A DNA stretch of 50,951 nt from Flavobacteriales bacterium. GTDB taxonomy: Bacteria; Bacteroidota; Bacteroidia; Flavobacteriales_D; Crocinitomicaceae. The translations under genes were made by a program, and so were the position numbers. Position 1 is the first letter of the stretch, and every line of letters begins with the position of its first letter. The stretch is taken from the NCBI GenBank assembly GCA_947463385.1, contig CANHSL010000007.1, forward strand, positions 1 through 50,951, given 5' to 3'. Below the pieces are notes generated by a model. It saw only the letters and a list, made by a program, of their open reading frames with translations. It made no database searches and was not told where the DNA came from. Of this stretch, positions 4,619-18,140 are shown in pieces.

Positions 4619-4999
4619 ATGACAACAGTTCAAAAAAATATCTTTGGCGAGCCTTTAATTCCATGCTGTATAAATCCAATGACAGGATTTTACAGGGATG
4701 GCTTATGCCGAACGGATGCACTCGATGAGGGACGTCATGTAGTATGCGCTCAAATGACGGAAGAATTTCTTGTCTTTTCAAAAGCAGCCGGAAATGACCT
4801 TTCAACTCCAAGACCCGAATATGATTTTCCAGGTCTGAACGCCGGTGATTTTTGGTGCCTGTGTGCACTGCGCTGGAAACAAGCATTTGATGCTGGGAAA
4901 GCGCCCAGAGTAAAACTAGAGGCCACCTCCGAAGCAGCCTTAGCCTACATAGAAATTCAAGATTTAATTGCACACGCCTACCGAACAATCGATGAATAA
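4619..4999 (+). CDS. DUF2237 family protein
   Basis: The 126-residue protein has the DUF2237 pattern: NIFGEPLIPCCINPMTGFYR at the N-terminus, CRTDALDEGRHVVCA, then FLVFSKAAGNDLSTP and GLNAGDFWCLCALRW. Conserved cysteines occur at about 15, 16, 28, 39, 81 and 83. No signal peptide is visible, so it should be cytoplasmic. The biochemical role of the family is unknown to me. Its stop codon lies inside the start of selO (overlap ATGAATAA), so the two are translationally coupled. Confidence 0.88.
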   Translation: MTTVQKNIFGEPLIPCCINPMTGFYRDGLCRTDALDEGRHVVCAQMTEEFLVFSKAAGNDLSTPRPEYDFPGLNAGDFWCLCALRWKQAFDAGKAPRVKLEATSEAALAYIEIQDLIAHAYRTIDE

Positions 5000-6440
5000 A
5001 TTGGAATACAGTTATTGTGAACTGCCCTCCGCATTTTATTCGAAGGTTAAGCCGCTGAAATTTAAAGGCGCCTCAACCTTTTTATTTAATGAAACGCTCG
5101 CAAAAAAACTCCATATTTCTGAGGATTTCATACCCAGTTTGCTCGACTCACCTTCCGAAGCTTTAACTGAAATTATCAGCCCCTTTGCTCAAGGCTATGC
5201 AGGACATCAATTCGGTCATTTCACCATGCTTGGTGATGGACGTGCGTTGGTCCTTGGCGAAGTAGTAACGAATACGCAACGCTTCGATTTACAACTCAAA
5301 GGAAGCGGTCCTACCCCCTATTCGCGTCGTGGAGATGGCCGAGCAACCTTGAAGGCGATGACTCGTGAGTATATCATAAGCGAAGCCATGGAGGCCTTGC
5401 ATATTCCGACATCAAGATCATTAGCGGTTTTGTCGACAGGCGAAAGCGTATTTCGTACGGTACCTGAACCTGGCGCTGTTCTGGCTCGGGTCATGAAAAG
5501 CCATATTAGGGTCGGAACCTTTGAATATGCACGATATTTTTTAGATGTTGAAGCGCTTCAATCCCTTTTAAGCTATGCGATTGACCGCCTCTATCCTTCA
5601 TGCAAGAACGCAAACAACCCAGCATTGGAATTCATTAAATCAGTAGCTAAAACACAATTTGAATTGGTAGCAGATTGGATGCGCGTTGGGTTTATTCATG
5701 GGGTAATGAATACAGACAATACGGCTATTAGTGGAGAATCGTTTGATTACGGTCCGTGCGCATTCATGAATCAATATGACCCCAACACGGTATTTAGTTC
5801 AATCGATACGCAGGGTCGGTATGCGTTCGCAAACCAAGGGGCCATCATTCAATGGAATTTAATACGCTTAACCGAGGCCCTTTTACCACTAATTGACCCC
5901 TCTGAAGCCCAAGCCCTAGCGATAGCAAAATCATTTATTCAAGGATTTGAACACGAATGGCATCGGATTTACCAGCACATGATGGCGCAAAAAATTGGTT
6001 TTACAGAAGCTGACCAAGAAACAGAACGCTTAGTTCATAGTTTATTGAAGCTCATGGAGGAACATGGTACAGATTACACCAATACCTTTGCAGGACTTTG
6101 TCATTCAATTCCCATCGCCCTTTCTCCTTGGGAGCATGCAGCATTTATGGAGTGGAAGAAGGAATGGAATTCCTATGCAAAAAGTAAAGAAATTACCTTG
6201 GAGGAACGGAAACAGCTAATGAGCACAAGAAATCCGGTCATTATACCACGTAACCACTTGGTAGAGTCAATACTTTCGGAGGTAGAATATTGGGGAAAGG
6301 ATACGAGCTATTCAACCAGATTTAACGAAGCACTGGCTATATGGAACAATCCATATCGCTATGACGAGTCGCTCATCCCTTGGATGACACCACCTACCGC
6401 CGAAGCGAACCAAGCGCATCAAACGTATTGCGGTACGTAA
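4992..6440 (+). CDS. selO: Protein adenylyltransferase SelO (YdiU family)
   Basis: The 482-residue pseudokinase-fold enzyme transfers AMP from ATP to Ser/Thr/Tyr of target proteins. Visible motifs are GHQFGHFTMLGDGRA (71-85), Lys103 in QLKGSGPTPYSRRGDGRAT, HGVMNTDN with Asp242/Asn243, and Asp252 in DYGP. The spacing matches the published catalytic residues of Pseudomonas SelO with a constant offset of 10. The C-terminus ends CGT, with Cys third from the end where eukaryotic SelO has selenocysteine. I start at ATG 4992 because the reading frame upstream offers only a TTG inside DUF2237. Known roles of the family relate to redox stress. Confidence 0.95.
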   Translation: MNKLEYSYCELPSAFYSKVKPLKFKGASTFLFNETLAKKLHISEDFIPSLLDSPSEALTEIISPFAQGYAGHQFGHFTMLGDGRALVLGEVVTNTQRFDLQLKGSGPTPYSRRGDGRATLKAMTREYIISEAMEALHIPTSRSLAVLSTGESVFRTVPEPGAVLARVMKSHIRVGTFEYARYFLDVEALQSLLSYAIDRLYPSCKNANNPALEFIKSVAKTQFELVADWMRVGFIHGVMNTDNTAISGESFDYGPCAFMNQYDPNTVFSSIDTQGRYAFANQGAIIQWNLIRLTEALLPLIDPSEAQALAIAKSFIQGFEHEWHRIYQHMMAQKIGFTEADQETERLVHSLLKLMEEHGTDYTNTFAGLCHSIPIALSPWEHAAFMEWKKEWNSYAKSKEITLEERKQLMSTRNPVIIPRNHLVESILSEVEYWGKDTSYSTRFNEALAIWNNPYRYDESLIPWMTPPTAEANQAHQTYCGT

Positions 6441-6524: not shown

Positions 6525-7187
6525 ATGAACATTTCAATTCAAGTAAGTGCAACGCTATATCATAAGGACCCAACAAGTTCCGAGATTGGATTAAAAATTT
6601 TATCGGAAGGCATTCAACTAATGCAAGATTTAGGATTTGAGGCATTTACTTTTAAAAAGCTTGCTCAAAACATTCAATCTACGGAAGCTACAATTTATCG
6701 TTATTTTGAGAACAAACACTACTTCCTGTTATACCTGATTAATTGGTATTGGGGAATTATATCGTATCGCCTCTTGCTCGCAACTGCGAATGTTACCGAT
6801 GCAAGGCAACAACTCACCAATTCAATCGAAGTGCTTACCGGATTGCCCGACGCTAGTCATCCGGGTTATATGGAAGAAGAAATGCAACTTAAACAAATCG
6901 TCATTCAAGAATCAGGGAAAGCCTTGCATACTAAAATGGTAGATGATGAGAATCAAAACGGCATTTATTTGAATTATAAATCCATCGTTTCTTCCGTAGC
7001 TGAATTGGTTAAAACCATTGACCCAAGCTTTCCTTATCCGGAAATGTTGATTTCAAATCTAATTGAAAACGCCAACCATCAACGGTTTTTCAGTGTTCAT
7101 CTCCCCCGGCTGACAAATACCTCACCAGAACAAGATGCAGTGGTAGCATTTTCACACTTAATCATTCAAAAAGTACTTCAATCATGA
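6525..7187 (+). CDS. TetR/AcrR family transcriptional regulator
   Basis: The 220-residue protein has the TetR helix-turn-helix at about residues 20-65: ILSEGIQLMQDLGFEAFTFK, then LAQNIQSTEATIYRYFENK. The ligand-binding half is divergent, as usual. It heads a four-gene unit and overlaps the ABC gene by 4 bases (ATGA), so it most likely represses this efflux cassette. The inverted repeat over its own promoter supports that. The inducer is unknown. The first Met (6525) is used because promoter box and operator lie just upstream. Confidence 0.88.
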   Translation: MNISIQVSATLYHKDPTSSEIGLKILSEGIQLMQDLGFEAFTFKKLAQNIQSTEATIYRYFENKHYFLLYLINWYWGIISYRLLLATANVTDARQQLTNSIEVLTGLPDASHPGYMEEEMQLKQIVIQESGKALHTKMVDDENQNGIYLNYKSIVSSVAELVKTIDPSFPYPEMLISNLIENANHQRFFSVHLPRLTNTSPEQDAVVAFSHLIIQKVLQS

Positions 7188-8842
7188 AAGCAGAAGAAAT
7201 GACTCCATTTAAGCGGCTATTAGCGATGCTTAAACCCGATAACAGCGAAATTCGCAACGTATATATTTTCGCTGCATTCAGCGGGGTTGTTGGTTTGGGA
7301 TTACCCATTGGCATTCAGGCCATTGTGAATTTCATCCAAATGGGACGGGTGAGTACCTCTTGGATTATTTTGGTGATATTGGTGATGCTCGCGATCATTA
7401 TCTCTGGCTTTCTGAATATTGCGCAAATGCGAATTACTGAAAACTTACAACAACGGATATTTGTACGATCTGCACTCGATTTTACGGACCGAATTCCCTT
7501 AATTAATACGGAGGCACTTAACAACAAATATGCGCCGGAGCTACCTAATCGCTTCTTTGATACCATTACCATTCAAAAAGGCCTATCGAAACTCATTCTT
7601 GACTTTGCAGCTGCCTCATTACAAATTATATTTGGGTTGGTTTTACTTTCATTTTACCATAGCTTTTTCATTTTCTTCGGATTGGCGTTAATCTTATTAC
7701 TTGTAATAGTATTTCGAATAACCGCTGAACGCGGATTTCGCTCGAGCTTGAGGGAATCGAACTATAAATACAAAATTGCGCATTGGCTGCAACAAATTGC
7801 ATACACCCGATTTAGCTTTAAAATGGCAGGAACCCCCTCCTATTTGATGTATCGCACCGATCAATACTTAGTAGAATATTTGAGCAGCAGAAATGAACAT
7901 TTCAAAATTCTAAAGCAACAATATCTATATCTCATTGGATTTAAAGCCATTATCGCTATGGCGTTGCTAGTCATTGGTGGGGTTTTAGTTATTAACCAAA
8001 CCATGAATATTGGTCAATTCGTAGCTGCTGAAATCATAATACTTCTCATCTTAAGTTCGGTAGAAAAACTCATCGTGAGTCTTGAAACCGTTTACGACCT
8101 ATTCACCGCCATTGAAAAAATTGGTCAGGTTACAGACTTACCCCTTGAAGGCAAATCCGGGATGGACATTCCACACAGTGACTTTGGGTACGAAATCGAT
8201 TTTCACAACATACGCTACGAAAATGACTTGACTAGTCAGACCTTACTTGAAGGAGCGACCTTTACCATTAAACCTAATGAGCGGGCGATTTTCCGAACAG
8301 ACAATACGGTTTCATCGAATTTAATTTTTGGATTAATTGCTGGAATTTATAACCCAAAAGAAGGGAGTTTATCAATCAACAACATCCCACTGGGGAACCT
8401 CAACCGAACCTATCTTCGAAACAGAATTGGAAACATGTTAACACAAGATTTACTGGTACACGCTACTGTTCTTGAGAATATTACCCTCGGAAGAGATTAT
8501 GTAAGTTTCGGAGAAGTCCAAACCCTTTGCGATCGCTTATTGCTTTCCAAACAAATTCAACATTTAAAAGAAGGTTACGATACCTTGTTAAATCCGGAAG
8601 GCCATTTTTTAGCCAAAGATTGCATTCGAAAAATCCTTATTGCACGTGCCCTGGTAGGTTCACCAAAACTAATTTTACTCGAAGAACCGCTACAGGACAT
8701 TAAATTAGATGAGCGGGAAGAAATTCTAAACGTTATCTTTTCCGCGGAAAATACAACCATACTCATTCAATCCGACGATGAATTAGTTGTACAGCGCGCA
8801 ACCCAGTCAATAACCATTAACCAAGGGTTAATCACTCATTAA
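7184..8842 (+). CDS. ABC exporter half-transporter with a degenerate ATPase domain
   Basis: The 552-residue protein has an exporter-type membrane domain (about 25-310, hydrophobic segments near 25-50, 58-82, 142-178, 245-295) and a C-terminal nucleotide-binding domain (about 338-552). The latter keeps the overall fold and Gln421 (Q-loop) but lacks key motifs. The Walker A site reads AIFRTDNTVSSNL (368-380) with no GxxGxGKS. The signature LSGGQ is replaced by HFLAKDC (474-480). Walker B is LILLEEP (496-502) with Asp changed to Glu but catalytic Glu501 kept, and the switch His is Ser530. The gene is intact and lies in an operon with hlyD and tolC. As encoded it is unlikely to hydrolyse ATP alone and may need a second, active subunit. 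Confidence 0.85.
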   Translation: MKAEEMTPFKRLLAMLKPDNSEIRNVYIFAAFSGVVGLGLPIGIQAIVNFIQMGRVSTSWIILVILVMLAIIISGFLNIAQMRITENLQQRIFVRSALDFTDRIPLINTEALNNKYAPELPNRFFDTITIQKGLSKLILDFAAASLQIIFGLVLLSFYHSFFIFFGLALILLLVIVFRITAERGFRSSLRESNYKYKIAHWLQQIAYTRFSFKMAGTPSYLMYRTDQYLVEYLSSRNEHFKILKQQYLYLIGFKAIIAMALLVIGGVLVINQTMNIGQFVAAEIIILLILSSVEKLIVSLETVYDLFTAIEKIGQVTDLPLEGKSGMDIPHSDFGYEIDFHNIRYENDLTSQTLLEGATFTIKPNERAIFRTDNTVSSNLIFGLIAGIYNPKEGSLSINNIPLGNLNRTYLRNRIGNMLTQDLLVHATVLENITLGRDYVSFGEVQTLCDRLLLSKQIQHLKEGYDTLLNPEGHFLAKDCIRKILIARALVGSPKLILLEEPLQDIKLDEREEILNVIFSAENTTILIQSDDELVVQRATQSITINQGLITH

Positions 8843-8853
8843 TATCGTATAGT

Positions 8854-10209
8854 ATGTTGAATATTTCTCCAAATAATCGAAATGGAATTGATGAGCAACA
8901 ATTTGTTTCTTATCAAAATGTTAAGAAAGAATCTTCCAATCCAAAACTTAAGCGAACACTATATATCATCGGATCTGTAGTACTATTAATCATGTTTTTA
9001 CCATGGACACAAAACATACGTTCCAATGGGAAAATAACGACACTTCGACCAGAGCAACGTCCTCAAACGATTAATTCAATAATTGCAGGTAGAATTGAAA
9101 CCTGGTTTGTTAAAGATGGGGATTTTGTAAAAAAAGGCGATACCATTGTTGTCATTTCAGAAGTAAAAGACGGGTATTTTGACCCCCAATTAGTCAATAG
9201 AACGCAACAGCAGATAAAGAACAAAGAACTCAGCGTAGTTTCATATGAACAAAAAGTTAATGCCTTGGACCAACGGATTGATGCATTGATTGAATCGTCT
9301 AAACTCAAATTACAACAAGCAAAAATCAAATACCGTCAAGCCCGTTTAAAAATCACTGCCGATAGCATAGAATTCCAAGCATCTGAAACTAATTACGATA
9401 TCGCTAAAGATCAATATCACCGATTCGAAAAATTACTTGAAAAAGGGTTAAAATCACAAACCGAAGTTGAGACGAGGCGTATGGCTATGCAGCGTGCCCA
9501 AGCGTCGATGATTTCAGCACAGCAAAAGCTTTTACAAAGTAGAAACGACCTTATTGATGCAAAAGTAGAAGTGAGTTCAACCGAAGCAAAATATCGCGAT
9601 GAAATTGCAAAAGCAGAATCAGATAAAATGTCTGCTATGACAAGCATGTATGATGCGGAGGTAGATGTCACCAAGTTGCAAAGCCAAGCCGCTGGATATT
9701 CAATTCGTAGTGGAAACTACCTTATTTTGGCTCCTCAAGATGGATACGTTACCAAAATTTTAAGCAGTGGTATCGGAGAGACCGTTAAGGCAGGTCAAGA
9801 GTTGGCTACCATCATGCCTTTAAATTATGACCTTGCTGTGGAAATGTATGTACGTCCAATGGATTACCCATTATTGCGTAAAGGGCAGCATGTACGTATG
9901 CAATTTGATGGATGGCCCGCGATTGTTTTTTCTGGCTGGCCTAATAACAGCTACGGAACTTACGGCGGAACGGTTTTCGCCATTGATAATTTCACCTCAG
10001 ACAATGGAATGTTTCGCGTACTGATTGCACCGGATAAAAAAGACCATCCATGGCCCAAGGCCTTGCGCGTTGGGGGTGGTGTTAATTCAATGCTTCTGCT
10101 TCAGGATGTAGCTATAGGTTATGAATTATGGCGAAACATTAATGGGTTTCCTCCTGATTTCTATGTGGAAAACGAATCAAAAGATGCAAAATCCTCCAAA
10201 AAGAAATGA
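8854..10209 (+). CDS. HlyD family periplasmic adaptor (membrane fusion protein)
   Basis: The 451-residue protein has one N-terminal membrane helix (about 36-52, ending FLPW), a lipoyl-like half (RIETWFVKDGDFVKKGDTI, about 82-100), a long coiled coil (about 118-275) and the second lipoyl half (DGYVTKILSSGIGETVKAG, about 298-316). A beta-barrel-like C-terminal part follows. It should bridge the ABC protein in the inner membrane and the TolC protein in the outer membrane. It starts 11 bases after the ABC gene and overlaps tolC by 4 bases, so the three form one machine. Confidence 0.93.
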   Translation: MLNISPNNRNGIDEQQFVSYQNVKKESSNPKLKRTLYIIGSVVLLIMFLPWTQNIRSNGKITTLRPEQRPQTINSIIAGRIETWFVKDGDFVKKGDTIVVISEVKDGYFDPQLVNRTQQQIKNKELSVVSYEQKVNALDQRIDALIESSKLKLQQAKIKYRQARLKITADSIEFQASETNYDIAKDQYHRFEKLLEKGLKSQTEVETRRMAMQRAQASMISAQQKLLQSRNDLIDAKVEVSSTEAKYRDEIAKAESDKMSAMTSMYDAEVDVTKLQSQAAGYSIRSGNYLILAPQDGYVTKILSSGIGETVKAGQELATIMPLNYDLAVEMYVRPMDYPLLRKGQHVRMQFDGWPAIVFSGWPNNSYGTYGGTVFAIDNFTSDNGMFRVLIAPDKKDHPWPKALRVGGGVNSMLLLQDVAIGYELWRNINGFPPDFYVENESKDAKSSKKK

Positions 10210-11582
10210 AACACTTTACCTTAACTCTATTGGTTTTACTTGGTTCCGTTAGCTTCGCTCAACAAGCCTTGACCGAAACAGCATTTCTATCCATGGTCAA
10301 GCAGAATCATCCCTTGATAAAAATAAGTGACCTACAACCCAAATATGGAGATGCTTATTTAATCAAGGCAAAAGGTGGATTTGACCCCAAAATAGCGGGG
10401 ACTTTAAATCAAAAATATTTTGATGGTAAGCAATATTACTCGGTTGGCGATTATGGTATTAAATACCCGACATGGTACGGTCTTACCGTAAAATCTGGGG
10501 TTGAAAGTAACCGAGGAACCTATTTAGACCCTCAAGCCAAAACACCTTCAGGAGGATTGTTTTACGGGGGAATTGGCGCCAATTTAGGTCAGGGTATGCT
10601 CATTGACCAACGGCGTGCAGACTTATGGAGCGCAAAGATAAACGTGCAGTCAAGCGATGAAGAACGACGGCTACAAGTGAATAAATTACTTTACGAGACA
10701 GGATATGCATACTGGGATTGGTTTCTAGCCTTTCATGCGAGAGAAATCCTTCAGGATGCGTATGATGTAGCCTTAGAGCGATTAATTGCAGTACAACAAA
10801 CGGCAATTCTAGGCGACCGGGCATTTATTGATACCGTTGAAGCAGGACTTCAAGTACAGCAACGTTTGAGTTTATTACGCGATGCGGAAGCCAATTACAA
10901 AGAAAAATGCAATGCACAATCCACTTATTTATGGTCGGAGAAACAAGAACCCTTGGTATTGAGCGAGACAACCCAACCCACCTCACAAAACGATTGGATT
11001 GCTTCAGCAGAAATCCCTTTTCAGGCCGACTCTTTGTTGAATCAACATCCGTATTTGAAAATCACTTCCTTTAAAGTGGATATGCTTGAAATTGATCGAA
11101 AACTGAAAGCAGATCGACTAAAACCTGTAGTTCAGTTAAATTATAACATACTGAATGAACCCGTTAATTACAACCCGTTTAGTGACCTGGATATAACCGA
11201 TTATAAATGGGGATTTTCCATTGAAATGCCACTCTTTTTACGCAAGGAACGCGGAGAATTGAAGCTTGCTAGTTTAAAAATTGAAGAAACACAACTCAAT
11301 TTGGTCCAATTAAAAGCGCAATTAAATTTGAAAATAAACAATGCGCGCATAGACCTGGCAAATAGCATAGCTCAATTAGAAATTTACCAACGAAGCGTAA
11401 CAGATTCTAAGGCATTACTTGATGCCGAACGAAACATGTTTGAAAACGGAGAGAGTTCCTTGTTTCTAATCAATATGCGTGAATTAAATTACATTCAATC
11501 GCAATTAAAGTACCTTGAATGGCAGGCAAAAAATAAGCAAATTGGCTACAGTTTAGGCTTTGCTACGGCCACCTTATTTTAA
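10206..11582 (+). CDS. TolC family outer-membrane efflux protein
   Basis: The 458-residue protein has a signal peptide (1 to about 18, ending SFAQ) and long amphipathic helices in two halves, about 130-240 and 335-440. These contain the Asn/Leu-rich helical pattern of outer-membrane efflux proteins (SLFLINMRELNYIQSQL near 418). It would form the outer-membrane exit duct of the cassette. It overlaps hlyD by ATGA and is the last gene of the operon. No terminator hairpin was seen after it. The substrate is unknown. Confidence 0.9.
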   Translation: MKHFTLTLLVLLGSVSFAQQALTETAFLSMVKQNHPLIKISDLQPKYGDAYLIKAKGGFDPKIAGTLNQKYFDGKQYYSVGDYGIKYPTWYGLTVKSGVESNRGTYLDPQAKTPSGGLFYGGIGANLGQGMLIDQRRADLWSAKINVQSSDEERRLQVNKLLYETGYAYWDWFLAFHAREILQDAYDVALERLIAVQQTAILGDRAFIDTVEAGLQVQQRLSLLRDAEANYKEKCNAQSTYLWSEKQEPLVLSETTQPTSQNDWIASAEIPFQADSLLNQHPYLKITSFKVDMLEIDRKLKADRLKPVVQLNYNILNEPVNYNPFSDLDITDYKWGFSIEMPLFLRKERGELKLASLKIEETQLNLVQLKAQLNLKINNARIDLANSIAQLEIYQRSVTDSKALLDAERNMFENGESSLFLINMRELNYIQSQLKYLEWQAKNKQIGYSLGFATATLF

Positions 11583-11605: not shown

Positions 11606-11815
11606 CTAATATGTGCTTGGATTCATAGGTATTTGGAATGTATTGTCACCTTTAAAAACAAATGCATCGGGCGATTGAGCCGCAGCCTTACTTAACAAGG
11701 CAAGTTCTTTCTCATGATGCAGGCAAGAACCGAAGGCCAAACTAAATCCCTGACTGAACAGTGGGGCAGTTTGCATAAGGCAACTCAATAAAATCAATGG
11801 AATCATTTGTATCAT
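11606..11815 (-). pseudogene. Truncated PhoD-like phosphatase remnant
   Basis: From the ATG at 11815 the minus strand encodes 69 residues: a signal-peptide-like start (MIQMIPLILLSCLMQ, ending FSQ), then FSLAFGSCLHHEKELALL and DAFVFKGDN, and a stop soon after. FGSC and the xxxFxGDN block are the opening motifs of PhoD-like metallophosphatases, normally more than 300 residues long. Nothing further of such a protein follows on this strand before tolC. A near-consensus box (TAATTTTA) lies 6 bases upstream. It is most likely a 5' fragment left by a deletion. A functional short peptide is less likely. Confidence 0.55.
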
Positions 11816-11830
11816 GCGGCATAAAATTAC

Positions 11831-11838
11831 TAGTTTTG
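11831..11838 (+). promoter_or_regulatory. -7 promoter box (TAGTTTTG) of the 11844 gene
   Basis: TAGTTTTG matches TAnnTTTG exactly and ends 5 bases before the ATG at 11844. It lies downstream of an alternative in-frame ATG at 11814, which argues for the later start. Confidence 0.5.
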
Positions 11839-11843
11839 GGGAG

Positions 11844-12983
11844 ATGGCGAAACCTGGTTTAAATATCATTCATTACCTCGCGGTGCTCGGTTTGTTCGCA
11901 TTGTGTATGATCCTGATGGTATTTTACAATGGGGTAATGCCTTTACTTTGTTTGATGGGCTTATTTTTTGGCGGGAGATTAGGCATTCGTAAACTAACAG
12001 GACATTCCTCCAATGGCTTAGGTATCCTTAAAAATAGCCTCTTAGTCATCTTGTTTATTGGCGCGGGTTTTACATGTAGTGTATTACGAACCGAAACCAA
12101 TTACTATTATTTTTTAACGCGAACGAATACGCTAAAGATTAAGCAAGATGGCGAGTGGGTGTTAATTCATAATGCGACCCGGATTGATGTGGATGAAATG
12201 TATTCAAATCCGTCGGTAGTTGTTCAACGCATTGACATTAAACGAAATCAGAAGGGTATCCTAGGCCGAGCACTAAACCTCGTAGTTTCGCAAAAAGTGA
12301 ATGTCTTCACCTTCAAACCATCGAATTCCTTTTACTTAGTTGCAGATCCAAGCAATGGATTTGCTCCGCTTACCGTTAAAGAGGCAAATTCACGAAAAGA
12401 AAGTAGTTTTCTTATAAACGCGAGTTTTTATGACCCCTCAAACCGTGCGTTGGGCGAAGTAATTTACTGCAGCAAGCAATACCAAACAAAAAGCAGTTCC
12501 TCGGGGTATTTCAAAGTAATCGATGGCGTACCTCATGCGGGACCCCGTTCGGTGTTTGAGGGGTATACCAACATCCCGCAATATTCATGTCAAGCGCACC
12601 CGTCAACAATGAAAGACGGTGTTATTTTCCAATACATTCTAGATAATTCCTTTGCCAAGTGGCGTCAGCGCACGTATCGTAATTTGGTTGGAGAAAAAGC
12701 GGATGGCAGCATTGTATGTATAGCCTCAGGCAATGGCGGATTATTAGATGTTCGTGAAATTAGTCAGCTCGCCAAACTACTCGGCGTAAAACACGCCACC
12801 TTGTTTGATGCGGGAATCGCCTTACAATATGCGTTCAAGAGTCCGGGATATTCTATGGAGTTTTCTGCTTTTAATAACCTCTTGGATGCTGGATCTTTTG
12901 TGGATAAGGTAGGAATGGAACTTTTTCGCAAGAATTTCATCCAACGATCGCCTGTTTATATTGGCATTACACTAAACGAATGA
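11844..12983 (+). CDS. Membrane-anchored phosphodiester glycosidase (NAGPA-like) family protein
   Basis: The 379-residue protein begins with three hydrophobic segments (about 8-30, 31-47, 65-85) followed by a soluble domain. The segments SSFLINASFYDP, ALGEVIYCS, VIFQYIL and ATLFDAGIALQYAF follow the order of motifs in NAGPA-type phosphodiester glycosidase domains (an N-A-F-F-like strand and a late L-D-G-G-like turn). The late motif is altered here (LFDAG). The substrate is unknown. It overlaps the TPR gene by ATGA. The start was chosen at 11844 from the promoter position. The family call is moderate. Confidence 0.6.
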   Translation: MAKPGLNIIHYLAVLGLFALCMILMVFYNGVMPLLCLMGLFFGGRLGIRKLTGHSSNGLGILKNSLLVILFIGAGFTCSVLRTETNYYYFLTRTNTLKIKQDGEWVLIHNATRIDVDEMYSNPSVVVQRIDIKRNQKGILGRALNLVVSQKVNVFTFKPSNSFYLVADPSNGFAPLTVKEANSRKESSFLINASFYDPSNRALGEVIYCSKQYQTKSSSSGYFKVIDGVPHAGPRSVFEGYTNIPQYSCQAHPSTMKDGVIFQYILDNSFAKWRQRTYRNLVGEKADGSIVCIASGNGGLLDVREISQLAKLLGVKHATLFDAGIALQYAFKSPGYSMEFSAFNNLLDAGSFVDKVGMELFRKNFIQRSPVYIGITLNE

Positions 12984-15783: not shown

Positions 15784-16761
15784 TTATTCCCTAATGATAG
15801 CCTCAATCATCACCTGACCTGAGATTAAGTTCAAGTGCAGTATGTATTTCCCTGCATTCAGCATGGATACATCAATAGCCTGTGTAAAGTTCGCCTCATA
15901 TATTTTTCTTCCCTCCATGGAATAGATTTGATAGGTTTTTACCTCATTCAGTTGATTACCGTTCAGGTATATTTTATCGCTGCTTGGGTTTGGAAAGAGC
16001 AGCAACTTCATGAAATCTGCCTCATGAATTCCTACCCCCTGGCATTCTCCCGGCTGATAACTAGAAACGCCGTAGTAGTTAATTGCAATGCAAGAATTTT
16101 GATACGTCACCGAATCGCAACCACACACGGGGTCAATTACCCCTGGACAAAGCACATTTAAATTAATTAAATTCGAATCAATGCATGCTAAGGTTACTAA
16201 GGTATCATTCATACACAAGCTATTGCAGGCATACAAACTGTTGTAGAAATAGCCGCTATAATCAACTCCATTGCTACCAATCATACTACATCCTGATACG
16301 GCAAAACACGAATCATTTTGTCTAATCACGCCTAAGGCCATGGCACAGGCTCCAAAATCAACGCCCGAAGGAACTTCCATACAGGTATCTAATTCCAAAG
16401 GTTCACAAGGACCGGGAGTCCATGAGGTAACTCCTCCATAATAAAAGGCCTCACAGGAATTGTTATAGGTCATACTATCGCACCCACACACTGGATCCAC
16501 AACGGTTGGACATAATACGGAAACATCAATTTGAGAAGGGTCAATGCAATTATTTTGATTGCAGGGACCTGGAGTCCATGACGTTACGCCACCCGACGTG
16601 GTAGCAATACAGTCATTCGCATAGGTAACCCCATCGCATCCACATACCGGATTGTATACCATCGGGCAAATTGCCATAGAATCAATCAAGGCAGGGTCAA
16701 CACAGGGCTGCGCGAGCGCATTGAAACCGAGTAATAAAAATAAACCGATTAATTTTTTCAT
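15784..16761 (-). CDS. T9SS-secreted protein with Kazal-type repeats
   Basis: The 325-residue protein has a signal peptide (1-15, MKKLIGLFLLLGFNA) and three cysteine-rich repeats containing PVCGCDGVTYANDC, PVCGCDSMTYNNSC and PVCGCDSVTYQNSC, the core of Kazal-type protease inhibitor domains. A different Cys-rich module lies between the second and third. The last 75 residues (LLFPNPSSDKIYLNG ... GKYILHL) are a type A T9SS sorting domain, so the protein should be exported across the outer membrane. The start is ATG 16761, which overlaps the symporter stop (ATGA). Protease inhibition is inferred from the fold only. Confidence 0.85.
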   Translation of the reverse strand: MKKLIGLFLLLGFNALAQPCVDPALIDSMAICPMVYNPVCGCDGVTYANDCIATTSGGVTSWTPGPCNQNNCIDPSQIDVSVLCPTVVDPVCGCDSMTYNNSCEAFYYGGVTSWTPGPCEPLELDTCMEVPSGVDFGACAMALGVIRQNDSCFAVSGCSMIGSNGVDYSGYFYNSLYACNSLCMNDTLVTLACIDSNLINLNVLCPGVIDPVCGCDSVTYQNSCIAINYYGVSSYQPGECQGVGIHEADFMKLLLFPNPSSDKIYLNGNQLNEVKTYQIYSMEGRKIYEANFTQAIDVSMLNAGKYILHLNLISGQVMIEAIIRE

Positions 16762-18140
16762 GCGTTTATGTGTTCTAATTCTCCTTCGGAACGAGCAATC
16801 ACTGCGGTGGCAAGGCAATTCCCCAATACATTGACAGAAGTTCGAGCCATGTCCATCACCGCATCGATTCCTAGAATCACACTCGCCTTCTCTGGATCTA
16901 AGCCCATGGAGGCAACTGTACCTGCTAAAATCACGAACGAAGCCCCTCGAACTCCCGCAACACCTTTGCTCGTTAACATTAACACGAGGCAAATCGAAAT
17001 TTGCTCCCCAATGCTTAAATTGATTCCTGACATTTGTGCAATAAAGACAGAAGCTAATGATAAATACAAGGTGGTGCCATCCAGATTAAAACTATACCCA
17101 GTTGGAATAACGAATCCTACAATATGCTTAGGAATGCCAAATTGCTCTAAATTTTCCATTGCTTTCGGTAGGGCCGCTTCACTACTTGCCGTTGCAAAAG
17201 CTAAAGAAACAGGCTCAGATACGGCATTCAAGAATTTACGAATTGGTATTTTAGCGAGTAAGGCAATCGGTAATAAAACAAGAAGTACAAAAACTACCAA
17301 AGAAACATAAAGGGTACCGACCAATTTCATGAGCGACATCAATACGTCGACACCGGACTTAGCGACGGTAGAAGCCAAAGCTCCGAAAACTGCCAAAGGT
17401 GCCAGGTACATGACAATATCAGTAAACTTAAACATGACTTCAGCTAAACTCTCATTCATCCGAAGCATGGTCAGCTTATGCTGCTCATTTTTTACCATAC
17501 CTAAGCCGATGGCAAAAATCACAGAGAAAACAACGATTTGAAGTACTGAATTTTCGGAAATAGACTTAGCAATATTCTCCGGGAAAATCTCCACAATGTG
17601 ATCCTTATGTTCAGATCGTTGTGCTAATAATTCGGTGCTTTTTTCTTTGACTTTTTCATTTACTTCTACCTGAACCCCTTTACCAGCCTGTGTGATATTG
17701 ATAGCCATTAAACCAATAAACAAGGCCAAGGTGGTAACAATCTCAAAATATATAATACTTTTCAATCCCATACGTCCTACTTGCTTGAGGTTGCTATGCC
17801 CAGCAATGCCAACAACCAAGGTGGCGAAAATTAAGGGGGCAACTAAGGTCTTTATTAAGCGGAGGAAAATTTTTGCTAAGCGTTCCATTTCTAAAGCAAA
17901 CGCAGGAAAATCCATCCCAACCTCAATCCCTAAAACCATGGCACTAAATATCCATAGCGACATTTTTTTCCGAACGAAAGAAATTAAAAAAAGCAAGGTA
18001 ATTAAAACAAATCGAAGCGATTCAAACAAGCCACTGGGCGCATTTTTCATATAGGCCTGAGCAACAAAACCTGCCAATAAGAGACCAAAAATCACTAGAT
18101 ATGCCTTTAAGTTGGCCAACCCTTTTACTGTATTCCACAT
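16758..18140 (-). CDS. Dicarboxylate/amino acid:cation symporter (DAACS family)
   Basis: The 460-residue inner-membrane protein takes up dicarboxylates or acidic amino acids with Na+ or H+. It has about eight hydrophobic segments plus the re-entrant signatures: FATASSEAALPKAMENL (about 305-321), SFNLDGTTLY, SKGVAGVRGASFVIL and DMARTSVNVLGNCLATAV. These are the GltP/GltPh/DctA substrate and ion sites. An insert of charged residues (KVKEKSTELLAQRSEHKDH) lies in an extracytoplasmic loop near 165-185. The start is ATG 18140, since the upstream extension begins only with TTG. It is coupled to the downstream Kazal-repeat gene by a 4-base overlap. Confidence 0.95.
   Translation of the reverse strand: MWNTVKGLANLKAYLVIFGLLLAGFVAQAYMKNAPSGLFESLRFVLITLLFLISFVRKKMSLWIFSAMVLGIEVGMDFPAFALEMERLAKIFLRLIKTLVAPLIFATLVVGIAGHSNLKQVGRMGLKSIIYFEIVTTLALFIGLMAINITQAGKGVQVEVNEKVKEKSTELLAQRSEHKDHIVEIFPENIAKSISENSVLQIVVFSVIFAIGLGMVKNEQHKLTMLRMNESLAEVMFKFTDIVMYLAPLAVFGALASTVAKSGVDVLMSLMKLVGTLYVSLVVFVLLVLLPIALLAKIPIRKFLNAVSEPVSLAFATASSEAALPKAMENLEQFGIPKHIVGFVIPTGYSFNLDGTTLYLSLASVFIAQMSGINLSIGEQISICLVLMLTSKGVAGVRGASFVILAGTVASMGLDPEKASVILGIDAVMDMARTSVNVLGNCLATAVIARSEGELEHINA

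Follow-up and report, generated by a model that had tools for sequence, protein, structure and literature searches.

A HlyD–TolC cassette of Bacteroidota whose ABC-exporter-like component probably no longer hydrolyzes ATP

What could power an ATP-binding cassette (ABC) exporter whose ATPase motifs have gone? The question is raised by a gene at positions 7184 to 8842 of a 50,951-nucleotide stretch from a Flavobacteriales bacterium of the Crocinitomicaceae (GenBank assembly GCA_947463385.1, contig CANHSL010000007.1, positions 1 to 50,951 of the forward strand), hereafter the window, by which we mean the whole stretch that was analyzed. The encoded protein joins a transmembrane domain (TMD) of the ABC-exporter type to the remnant of a nucleotide-binding domain (NBD), and its gene stands between that of a TetR-family regulator and those of a HlyD-type adaptor and a TolC-type duct. 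Judging from its sequence, this protein very probably does not hydrolyze ATP, and we regard it as fairly probable that it is an ABC-exporter-derived inner-membrane part of a HlyD–TolC conduit for which ATP hydrolysis is no longer needed and which is perhaps proton-driven. The cassette and the two domains of the protein are laid out as follows.

6525..7187, + strand: TetR-family regulator, 220 aa (PF00440 TetR_N, 31.0 bits, cut-off 24)
7184..8842, + strand: ABC-exporter-like protein with a pseudo-ATPase domain, 552 aa (intact frame, Pfam, alignments)
8854..10209, + strand: HlyD-type periplasmic adaptor, 451 aa (Pfam HlyD domains)
10206..11582, + strand: TolC-type outer-membrane duct, 458 aa (Pfam OEP)
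7184..8152, + strand: TMD, residues 1-323, strongly conserved (alignment, conservation, model)
8153..8839, + strand: NBD remnant, residues 324-552, predicted to be folded, motifs lost (motif survey, substitution rates dN/dS, AF2 model, fold matches)

The ABC frame opens with an ATG at 7184 and runs uninterrupted through 552 codons' worth of protein to a stop that ends at 8842, and the four genes are codirectional, with 4-base overlaps at the tetR/ABC and hlyD/tolC junctions. Both halves of the protein are still recognized by Pfam, the ABC transmembrane region (PF00664) at 30.6 bits against a cut-off of 28 and the NBD, as a weak ABC ATPase match (PF00005), at 28.5 bits against a cut-off of 25.

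ATPase motifs of the window protein and of its family

The sites at which an ABC ATPase binds and hydrolyzes ATP were located by alignment:

8294..8323, + strand: former Walker A, residues 371-380, RTDNTVSSNL
8444..8446, + strand: Gln421, the Q-loop Gln, kept
8609..8623, + strand: former signature, residues 476-480, LAKDC in place of LSGGQ
8669..8689, + strand: Walker B region, residues 496-502, LILLEEP, with the Asp replaced by E500 and the catalytic Glu501 kept
8756..8776, + strand: former H-loop, residues 525-531, TILIQSD, without His

The canonical Walker A, GxxGxGK[ST], aligns with residues 371-379 or 372-380 depending on which of two alignments is followed, and its Gly and Lys are absent in both. 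A sequencing error is unlikely, since a relative with 96% identity (L008) shows the same motif losses and the remaining same-genus orthologues in the alignment lack Walker A as well. An earlier reading of this DNA from its letters alone (the sequence-only reading) had described an intact frame coupled to regulator, adaptor, and duct, the loss of Walker A and of the signature, and the retention of Gln421 and Glu501, all of which the 552-aa frame, the cassette at 6525-11582, and the alignments bear out. It had also placed a lost switch His at Ser530; the His is indeed absent, the alignment putting its column one residue further on, at Asp531.

How far does this decay extend beyond a single protein? 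In a set of 40 genomes made up of the window genome and relatives, orthologues were found in 24 (E no higher than 7e-115, with 9e-20 for the next match) and have no internal stop; the other 16 are without the family. A profile of these orthologues finds members (E at most 1e-60) in 134/299 genomes of the order and 97/395 of the phylum, two samples that partly overlap, and a scan of named genomes gave at least 583 confirmed stretches, the best 80 of which include Salegentibacter, Olleya, Tenacibaculum, Polaribacter, Maribacter, Flavobacterium, Algoriphagus, and Lewinella, with loci in Flavobacterium aquatile (L213) and Polaribacter glomeratus (L187); many Bacteroidota genomes thus bear such genes. 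We examined 204 members, namely the 24 orthologues, 100 chosen from the order and phylum samples, and the 80 best named-genome matches. Removal of 7 duplicates left 197, which comprise a partial frame (L207), six genes with a TMD only, two TMD–HlyD fusions (L047, L048), and 188 NBD-bearing members, L048 being left out of the latter as its HlyD letters fell in the NBD columns.

Within the 188, a strict Walker A is found in 141 and its Lys in 152, LSGGQ in none, a Gly at the fourth signature position in 32, the Walker B Asp in 31, Glu at the catalytic column in 35, and His at the H-loop column in 12. By comparison, seven canonical paralogues used as a control have Walker A in 7/7, LSGGQ in 5/7, the fourth-position Gly in 7/7, the catalytic Glu in 6/7, and the His in 7/7. 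Only eight members (L056, L088, L090-L094, L096) keep Walker A, fourth-position Gly, Asp, Glu, and His together; none of their genomes belongs to the window's class, and the eight fall within one deep clade of ten rows in the TMD tree described below. The sequence-only reading had pointed to flavobacterial relatives with GPSGSGKST, and a strict Walker A is in fact common, but the domains that carry it are mostly not intact, since 133 of the 141 are without the catalytic Glu or the switch His. From these alignments, decay of the ATPase domain is a property of the Bacteroidota cassette family, to differing degrees and with a conserved TMD, and most of the examined members probably do not hydrolyze ATP in the usual way.

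Four members (L110, L131-L133) have signatures nearer to the canonical one (LSGGI, LSTGI, LSTGV, LSGGA) and have lost the catalytic Glu. In L056, L088, and L090-L095 of the deep clade and in L044, L075, and L080-L083 elsewhere, the frame is longer at the N-terminal side by about 150-250 residues. Six of these members were scanned (L091, L092, L093, L056, L081, L044), and Pfam recognized nothing above cut-off in the added region; for L091, a PDB sequence search up to E 1 was likewise empty. In the deep clade, the extension might be a degenerate C39-like domain.

The missing NBD motifs could also be read as those of a decaying pseudogene. Against L008, however, the ratio of nonsynonymous to synonymous substitution rates (dN/dS) is 0.018 in the TMD (dS 0.51) and 0.088 in the NBD (dS 0.39), which makes chance decay unlikely and indicates, as far as substitution rates can tell, that the NBD remnant is under purifying selection. 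With the uninterrupted frames of all 24 orthologues and the retention of the cassette across families, this leaves a pseudogene barely credible. The two domains nevertheless evolve at different paces: across the 210 pairs formed by 21 genomes, identity is 61.5% in the TMD and 30.5% in the NBD, and the NBD is the better conserved in 0 pairs. An MsbA-like exporter from these 21 genomes gives 58.7% and 68.0%, with the NBD ahead in 142/210 pairs (in this control, compared with L218, NBD dN lies above TMD dN). Most of the TMD is highly conserved, with peaks in transmembrane helices 3 and 6 (TM3, TM6).

The AlphaFold2 (AF2) model of the window protein, built on 59 rows, has a mean pLDDT of 88.5, and among the 24 blocks of ten residues counted from residue 321, 17 score 91-96 and the others 69-88, so the NBD remnant is predicted to be folded. 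The best Foldseek match in the PDB is PCAT1 (8voz_A, E 3.9e-27), and the best match by VIA-align is HlyB in the HlyB/D complex (8dck_B, Z 30.3, rmsd 2.4, 544 aligned residues), with TmrAB (6rai_B, Z 30.2) tied to it and PCAT1 at Z 29.5. A well-folded domain under purifying selection that retains Gln421 and Glu501 is also what slow ATP hydrolysis by non-canonical motifs would call for. Yet the Walker A Lys and Gly, the signature Gly and Ser, and the switch His are all missing, and some relatives persist without any NBD, which together make such residual hydrolysis very improbable.

Members without an NBD and the charges of TM6

In six genes (L037-L042) the frame, of 334-360 aa, ends shortly behind TM6; their stop is overlapped by the hlyD frame or followed by its start within about 70 bases, tolC comes next, and one of the six sits in a single-contig genome of 7.03 Mb. 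Internal stop codons that had appeared in the matches of two genomes (G385, G676) are really the ends of such TMD-only genes, which hlyD follows. A different genus has the TMD joined straight to HlyD, with no NBD in between (L048, 776 aa; L237, 768 aa), and Pfam recognizes HlyD_3 and Biotin_lipoyl_2 in L048 and no ABC_tran; a third fusion (L047) is cut by the contig end.

We placed these events on a tree of the TMD columns, inferred by a quick method from 133 rows after thinning members with more than 80% TMD identity and rooted for drawing only. Total loss of the NBD requires two changes, both forced by the starred branches, and absence of the Walker A Gly and Lys requires seven, at least three of them forced; the window protein belongs to a well-supported 12-row clade without Walker A. 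L046 and the fusions form long branches whose placement is unsure. We infer that the direction of change was NBD loss. Genus g49 (L046, L238-L240), which in this tree, through L046, is sister to the fusions, retains a strongly divergent NBD remnant (L046 was scored without Walker A, and L238-L240 were read by eye), possibly a stage before fusion.

A TMD fused to HlyD resembles an elaborate HlyD anchor, and this lends some color to the idea that the protein is no transporter at all, acting instead as a platform on which the HlyD–TolC tube assembles, or as a sensor for it, while the real pump is encoded elsewhere. Conservation through most of the TMD, topped in TM3 and TM6, exceeds what an anchor would need, and the cassette has no other conserved pump gene next to it, so that we find this idea quite improbable.

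What the TMD might do is hinted at by the charges of its last helix.

8030..8098, + strand: TM6 stretch with E283, E294, K295, and D305, almost invariant across the family (alignment)

Counted over 196 members (L207 left out), position 283 is Glu in 195/196, 294 acidic in 195/196, 295 Lys in 194/196, 305 acidic in 194/196, and 312 Lys in 196/196. In the controls, position 283 holds an acid in 0/7 canonical paralogues and 0/21 MsbA-like exporters, and position 305 a Lys or Arg in 6/7 and 21/21, respectively. E283, E294, and D305 are spaced 11 residues apart and should therefore share a helix face. By alignment, E283 corresponds to position 331, a Phe, of mouse P-glycoprotein chain 6ujw_A, which we take to be a drug-pocket residue.

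On this basis, the window gene product would be the inner-membrane part of an envelope-spanning HlyD–TolC export conduit descended from a HlyB/PCAT-like ABC exporter, in which the TMD, probably as a homodimer, would perform transport or gating and hold the HlyD adaptor, and the NBD remnant would serve as a folded scaffold that some lineages have dropped. The homodimer, the assembly with HlyD and TolC, the export direction, the control by TetR, and the existence of a substrate are what we infer from the cassette. The likeliest energy source would be the proton motive force, acting through the TM6 acidic series E283, E294, and D305 together with K295. Indeed, SbmA, an ABC-TMD transporter, is proton-driven through a glutamate ladder (PMC13316013), and LmrA-MD, which is LmrA without its NBD, carries out ion-coupled transport whose pH-driven part is blocked by E314A in TM6 (PMC2704374); proton coupling is therefore the mode that we prefer, and by this analogy, if ATP hydrolysis is indeed absent, it has about an even chance of being correct.

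If no gradient drives the TMD, it could still be a passive or ligand-gated conduit, a dimeric channel or gate under HlyD–TolC through which substrates leave down their own gradient. NBD loss and HlyD fusion would suit such a structural anchor or gate, and no separate energy source has been found; on the other side, TM6 retains near-invariant charges, and since many copies have a TetR gene next to them, efflux may be regulated, and regulated efflux usually requires energy. We give this conduit an outside but real chance.

To take up the proton-driven conduit again, an ATP-driven ABC exporter could here have become a gradient-driven transporter in nature for a second time, independently of SbmA, giving an ATP-independent tripartite pump of ABC fold that is widespread in Bacteroidota. 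In this broader proposal, which we put forward tentatively and with rather less than even confidence, the conversion would be caught at many stages: the near-intact deep clade, members with Walker A only, those with a motif-less NBD, the TMD-only genes, and the TMD–HlyD fusions.

Cassette neighbors and the search for an ATPase partner

The sequence-only reading had offered two ways out for a dead ATPase, the first being an active half-transporter encoded elsewhere that pairs with the protein. In its general form, this explanation has a canonical half-exporter or a stand-alone NBD dock on the cytoplasmic loops and drive the window protein in trans. Degenerate-site heterodimers are well known among ABC exporters, being discussed with one of the two sites degenerate (PMC7756269), and the window genome itself holds four other canonical half-exporters and two shorter ABC-ATPase frames (L006, L007) that match weakly.

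The surroundings of the cassette offer no such partner. Around 100 wide loci (L037-L136), HlyD is downstream in 97, fused in 2, and missing in 1, with TolC in 97 and TetR in 65. Over 154 wide loci the recurrent neighbors are only ABC, TolC, HlyD, and TetR (the last in 105/154), the next cluster reaching 13 loci (the clusters are single-linkage, and some HlyD frames are merged with ABC through the fusion). Across these 154 loci we found no conserved ATPase or other pump gene beside the cassette, nor any conserved fifth gene that could be a linked substrate gene, although substrates can be encoded elsewhere. Upstream “NBD” frames at L092, L094, and L134 were considered as tandem partners and rejected, their letters looking like UvrA and oligopeptide-type ABC ATPases. 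A separate 286-aa ABC ATPase frame of L042, 5.2 kb downstream past hlyD and tolC, reads by its letters like an ordinary non-exporter ATPase. Five loci (L058, L076, L079, L120, L123) have about 200-450 extra bases before tolC relative to most others, possibly with an additional small gene.

The half-exporters encoded elsewhere do not follow the family either. Relatives of L003 and L005 occur in 40/40 genomes at 41% identity or more, and those of L004 in 38/40, one of them only at 32% identity; all four half-exporters are thus also met in family-negative relatives, and one family-positive genome (G004) is without a close relative of L002. When the six TMD-only genomes were searched for a relocated family NBD, the best-scoring match in each, among the matches listed, had 27-31% identity in a frame of 583-633 aa, and the query's own genome gave itself and then 32%; the NBD has therefore not simply moved.

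Several observations nonetheless count against an ATP-independent, proton-driven conduit. The window protein retains Gln421 and Glu501, and 35 of the 100 wide loci have no TetR gene. An L002-like exporter (45% identity or more) is somewhat commoner in family-positive than in family-negative relatives, several of the latter being incomplete genomes (23/24 vs. 12/16; Fisher p 0.14). TMD-only genomes hold many stand-alone or shorter ABC ATPase frames that match weakly, among the matches listed. The deep clade, with its largely intact ATPase motifs, has the TM6 charges as well (E283 in 10/10); because that clade shares them, they are not specific to ATP independence, and they may be older than NBD decay and serve substrate binding instead. 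Finally, the stretches that we regard as the docking places of the NBD survive without it: in TMD-only members, the cytoplasmic loop ICL1 (119-136) is at 0.83 of consensus, against 0.80 in NBD-bearing ones, and the core of ICL2 (191-204) at 0.68, against 0.80.

The conservation of ICL1 and of the ICL2 core suggests that coupling helices are present, their identity being assigned by alignment only. The AF2 helix at 209-215 was considered as coupling helix 2 and set aside, comparison with canonical sequences suggesting the conserved 191-204 instead. The stretch that follows ICL2 (207-218) is erased, at 0.10 of consensus in TMD-only and 0.08 in fused members against 0.58 in NBD-bearing ones; in the two aligned fusions, ICL1 119-136 falls to 0.39 and ICL2 191-204 to 0.29, the whole TMD having drifted as well. 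Conserved loops beside an erased 207-218 therefore leave a trans-acting ATPase as the main energetic rival, one that the conserved loops and the L002 trend favor and that the erased stretch, the half-exporters of family-negative relatives, the cassettes with no conserved ATPase neighbor, and the lack of a relocated NBD oppose; we consider it unlikely. The half-transporter partner proposed by the sequence-only reading is accordingly not supported, given also that some members have no NBD at all. Its other option, a different energy source, gains support, as does its idea of a pseudo-ATPase within a tripartite cassette, through the motif losses and the HlyD and TolC genes alongside.

Other genes of the window deserve a brief mention. 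Directly upstream of the cassette and on the same strand lies a SelO-family protein (a protein adenylyltransferase; PF02696, 365.8 bits; 4968-6440), not recognizable among the recurrent cassette neighbors in the 14 largest neighbor clusters of the 154 wide loci. After tolC comes an NAGPA-like phosphodiester glycosidase (11814-12983; PF09992, 28.1 bits), and on the minus strand at 15784-16917 a likely secreted protease inhibitor, in which Kazal-type inhibitor domains are repeated and a Por secretion tail is present.

Relation to known transport systems

Close structural relatives are the type 1 secretion and PCAT exporters (HlyB-HlyD-TolC, PCAT1), which have the same fold over nearly the whole chain, and adaptor and duct are co-encoded here as well. 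Unlike them, the window protein is without ATPase motifs, has no N-terminal peptidase-like domain (its TMD starts near residue 8), and is accompanied by no conserved adjacent substrate gene; the type 1 secretion subfamily scores of the NCBIfam models lie below their cut-offs (TIGR01846, 90.1 vs. 725.55; TIGR01843, 85.0 vs. 208.65; TIGR01844, 24.6 vs. 225.15). The heterodimeric ABC exporters TM287/288, TmrAB, and CydDC share the fold of the window protein and have altered motifs in one of their two sites. Such heterodimers, however, keep one canonical site through their partner, whereas a homodimer of the window protein would have two dead sites, and the searches turned up no partner.

EmrAB-TolC-like tripartite pumps draw on the energy of a membrane gradient, with an inner-membrane part of the major facilitator superfamily (MFS); the inner-membrane part described here is instead predicted, from its model, to have an ABC exporter fold. 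Tripartite pumps are classed by their energized inner-membrane part as ABC, resistance-nodulation-division, or MFS in the available text of PMC8277102, which names TmrAB with its degenerate TmrB site and, in its remarks on “degenerate” within that text, mentions no pump that is a dead homodimer. We found no report of a Bacteroidota ABC cassette with a dead or missing NBD in a literature search in which subscription papers were thinly covered, which is weak evidence of absence.

For an ABC-exporter TMD that works without an NBD and with conserved acidic residues, the SbmA-like SLiPTs provide a precedent. According to PMC13316013, the proposed origin of SbmA is a full ABC transporter that lost its NBD, and the SLiPTs lost their coupling helices. 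Here, three TM6 acids might play a comparable part in moving protons, but the cytoplasmic loops are largely kept, the HlyD–TolC cassette suggests export and not import, and an NBD is still borne by most members. Under the “no NBD” definition of SLiPTs, the window protein falls outside, owing to its NBD remnant, and L037-L042, L048, and L237 are NBD-less; no match of the window protein to the SbmA_BacA Pfam family was listed up to E 1, HMMER filters dropping most matches above 0.1. With regard to LmrA-MD, that NBD-less protein is man-made whereas the NBD-less genes found here are natural, and its E314 is likened to the acids described above by its place in TM6.

What appears to be new, then, is the combination of a HlyB/PCAT fold and a type 1 secretion-like cassette, minus the ATPase. 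If our explanation is true, the loss of the ATPase from an ABC-fold part would break the link between the class of a tripartite pump and its energy source and show, step by step, how a primary pump becomes something else; this graded natural series makes the function of an ABC TMD without ATP a directly testable question.

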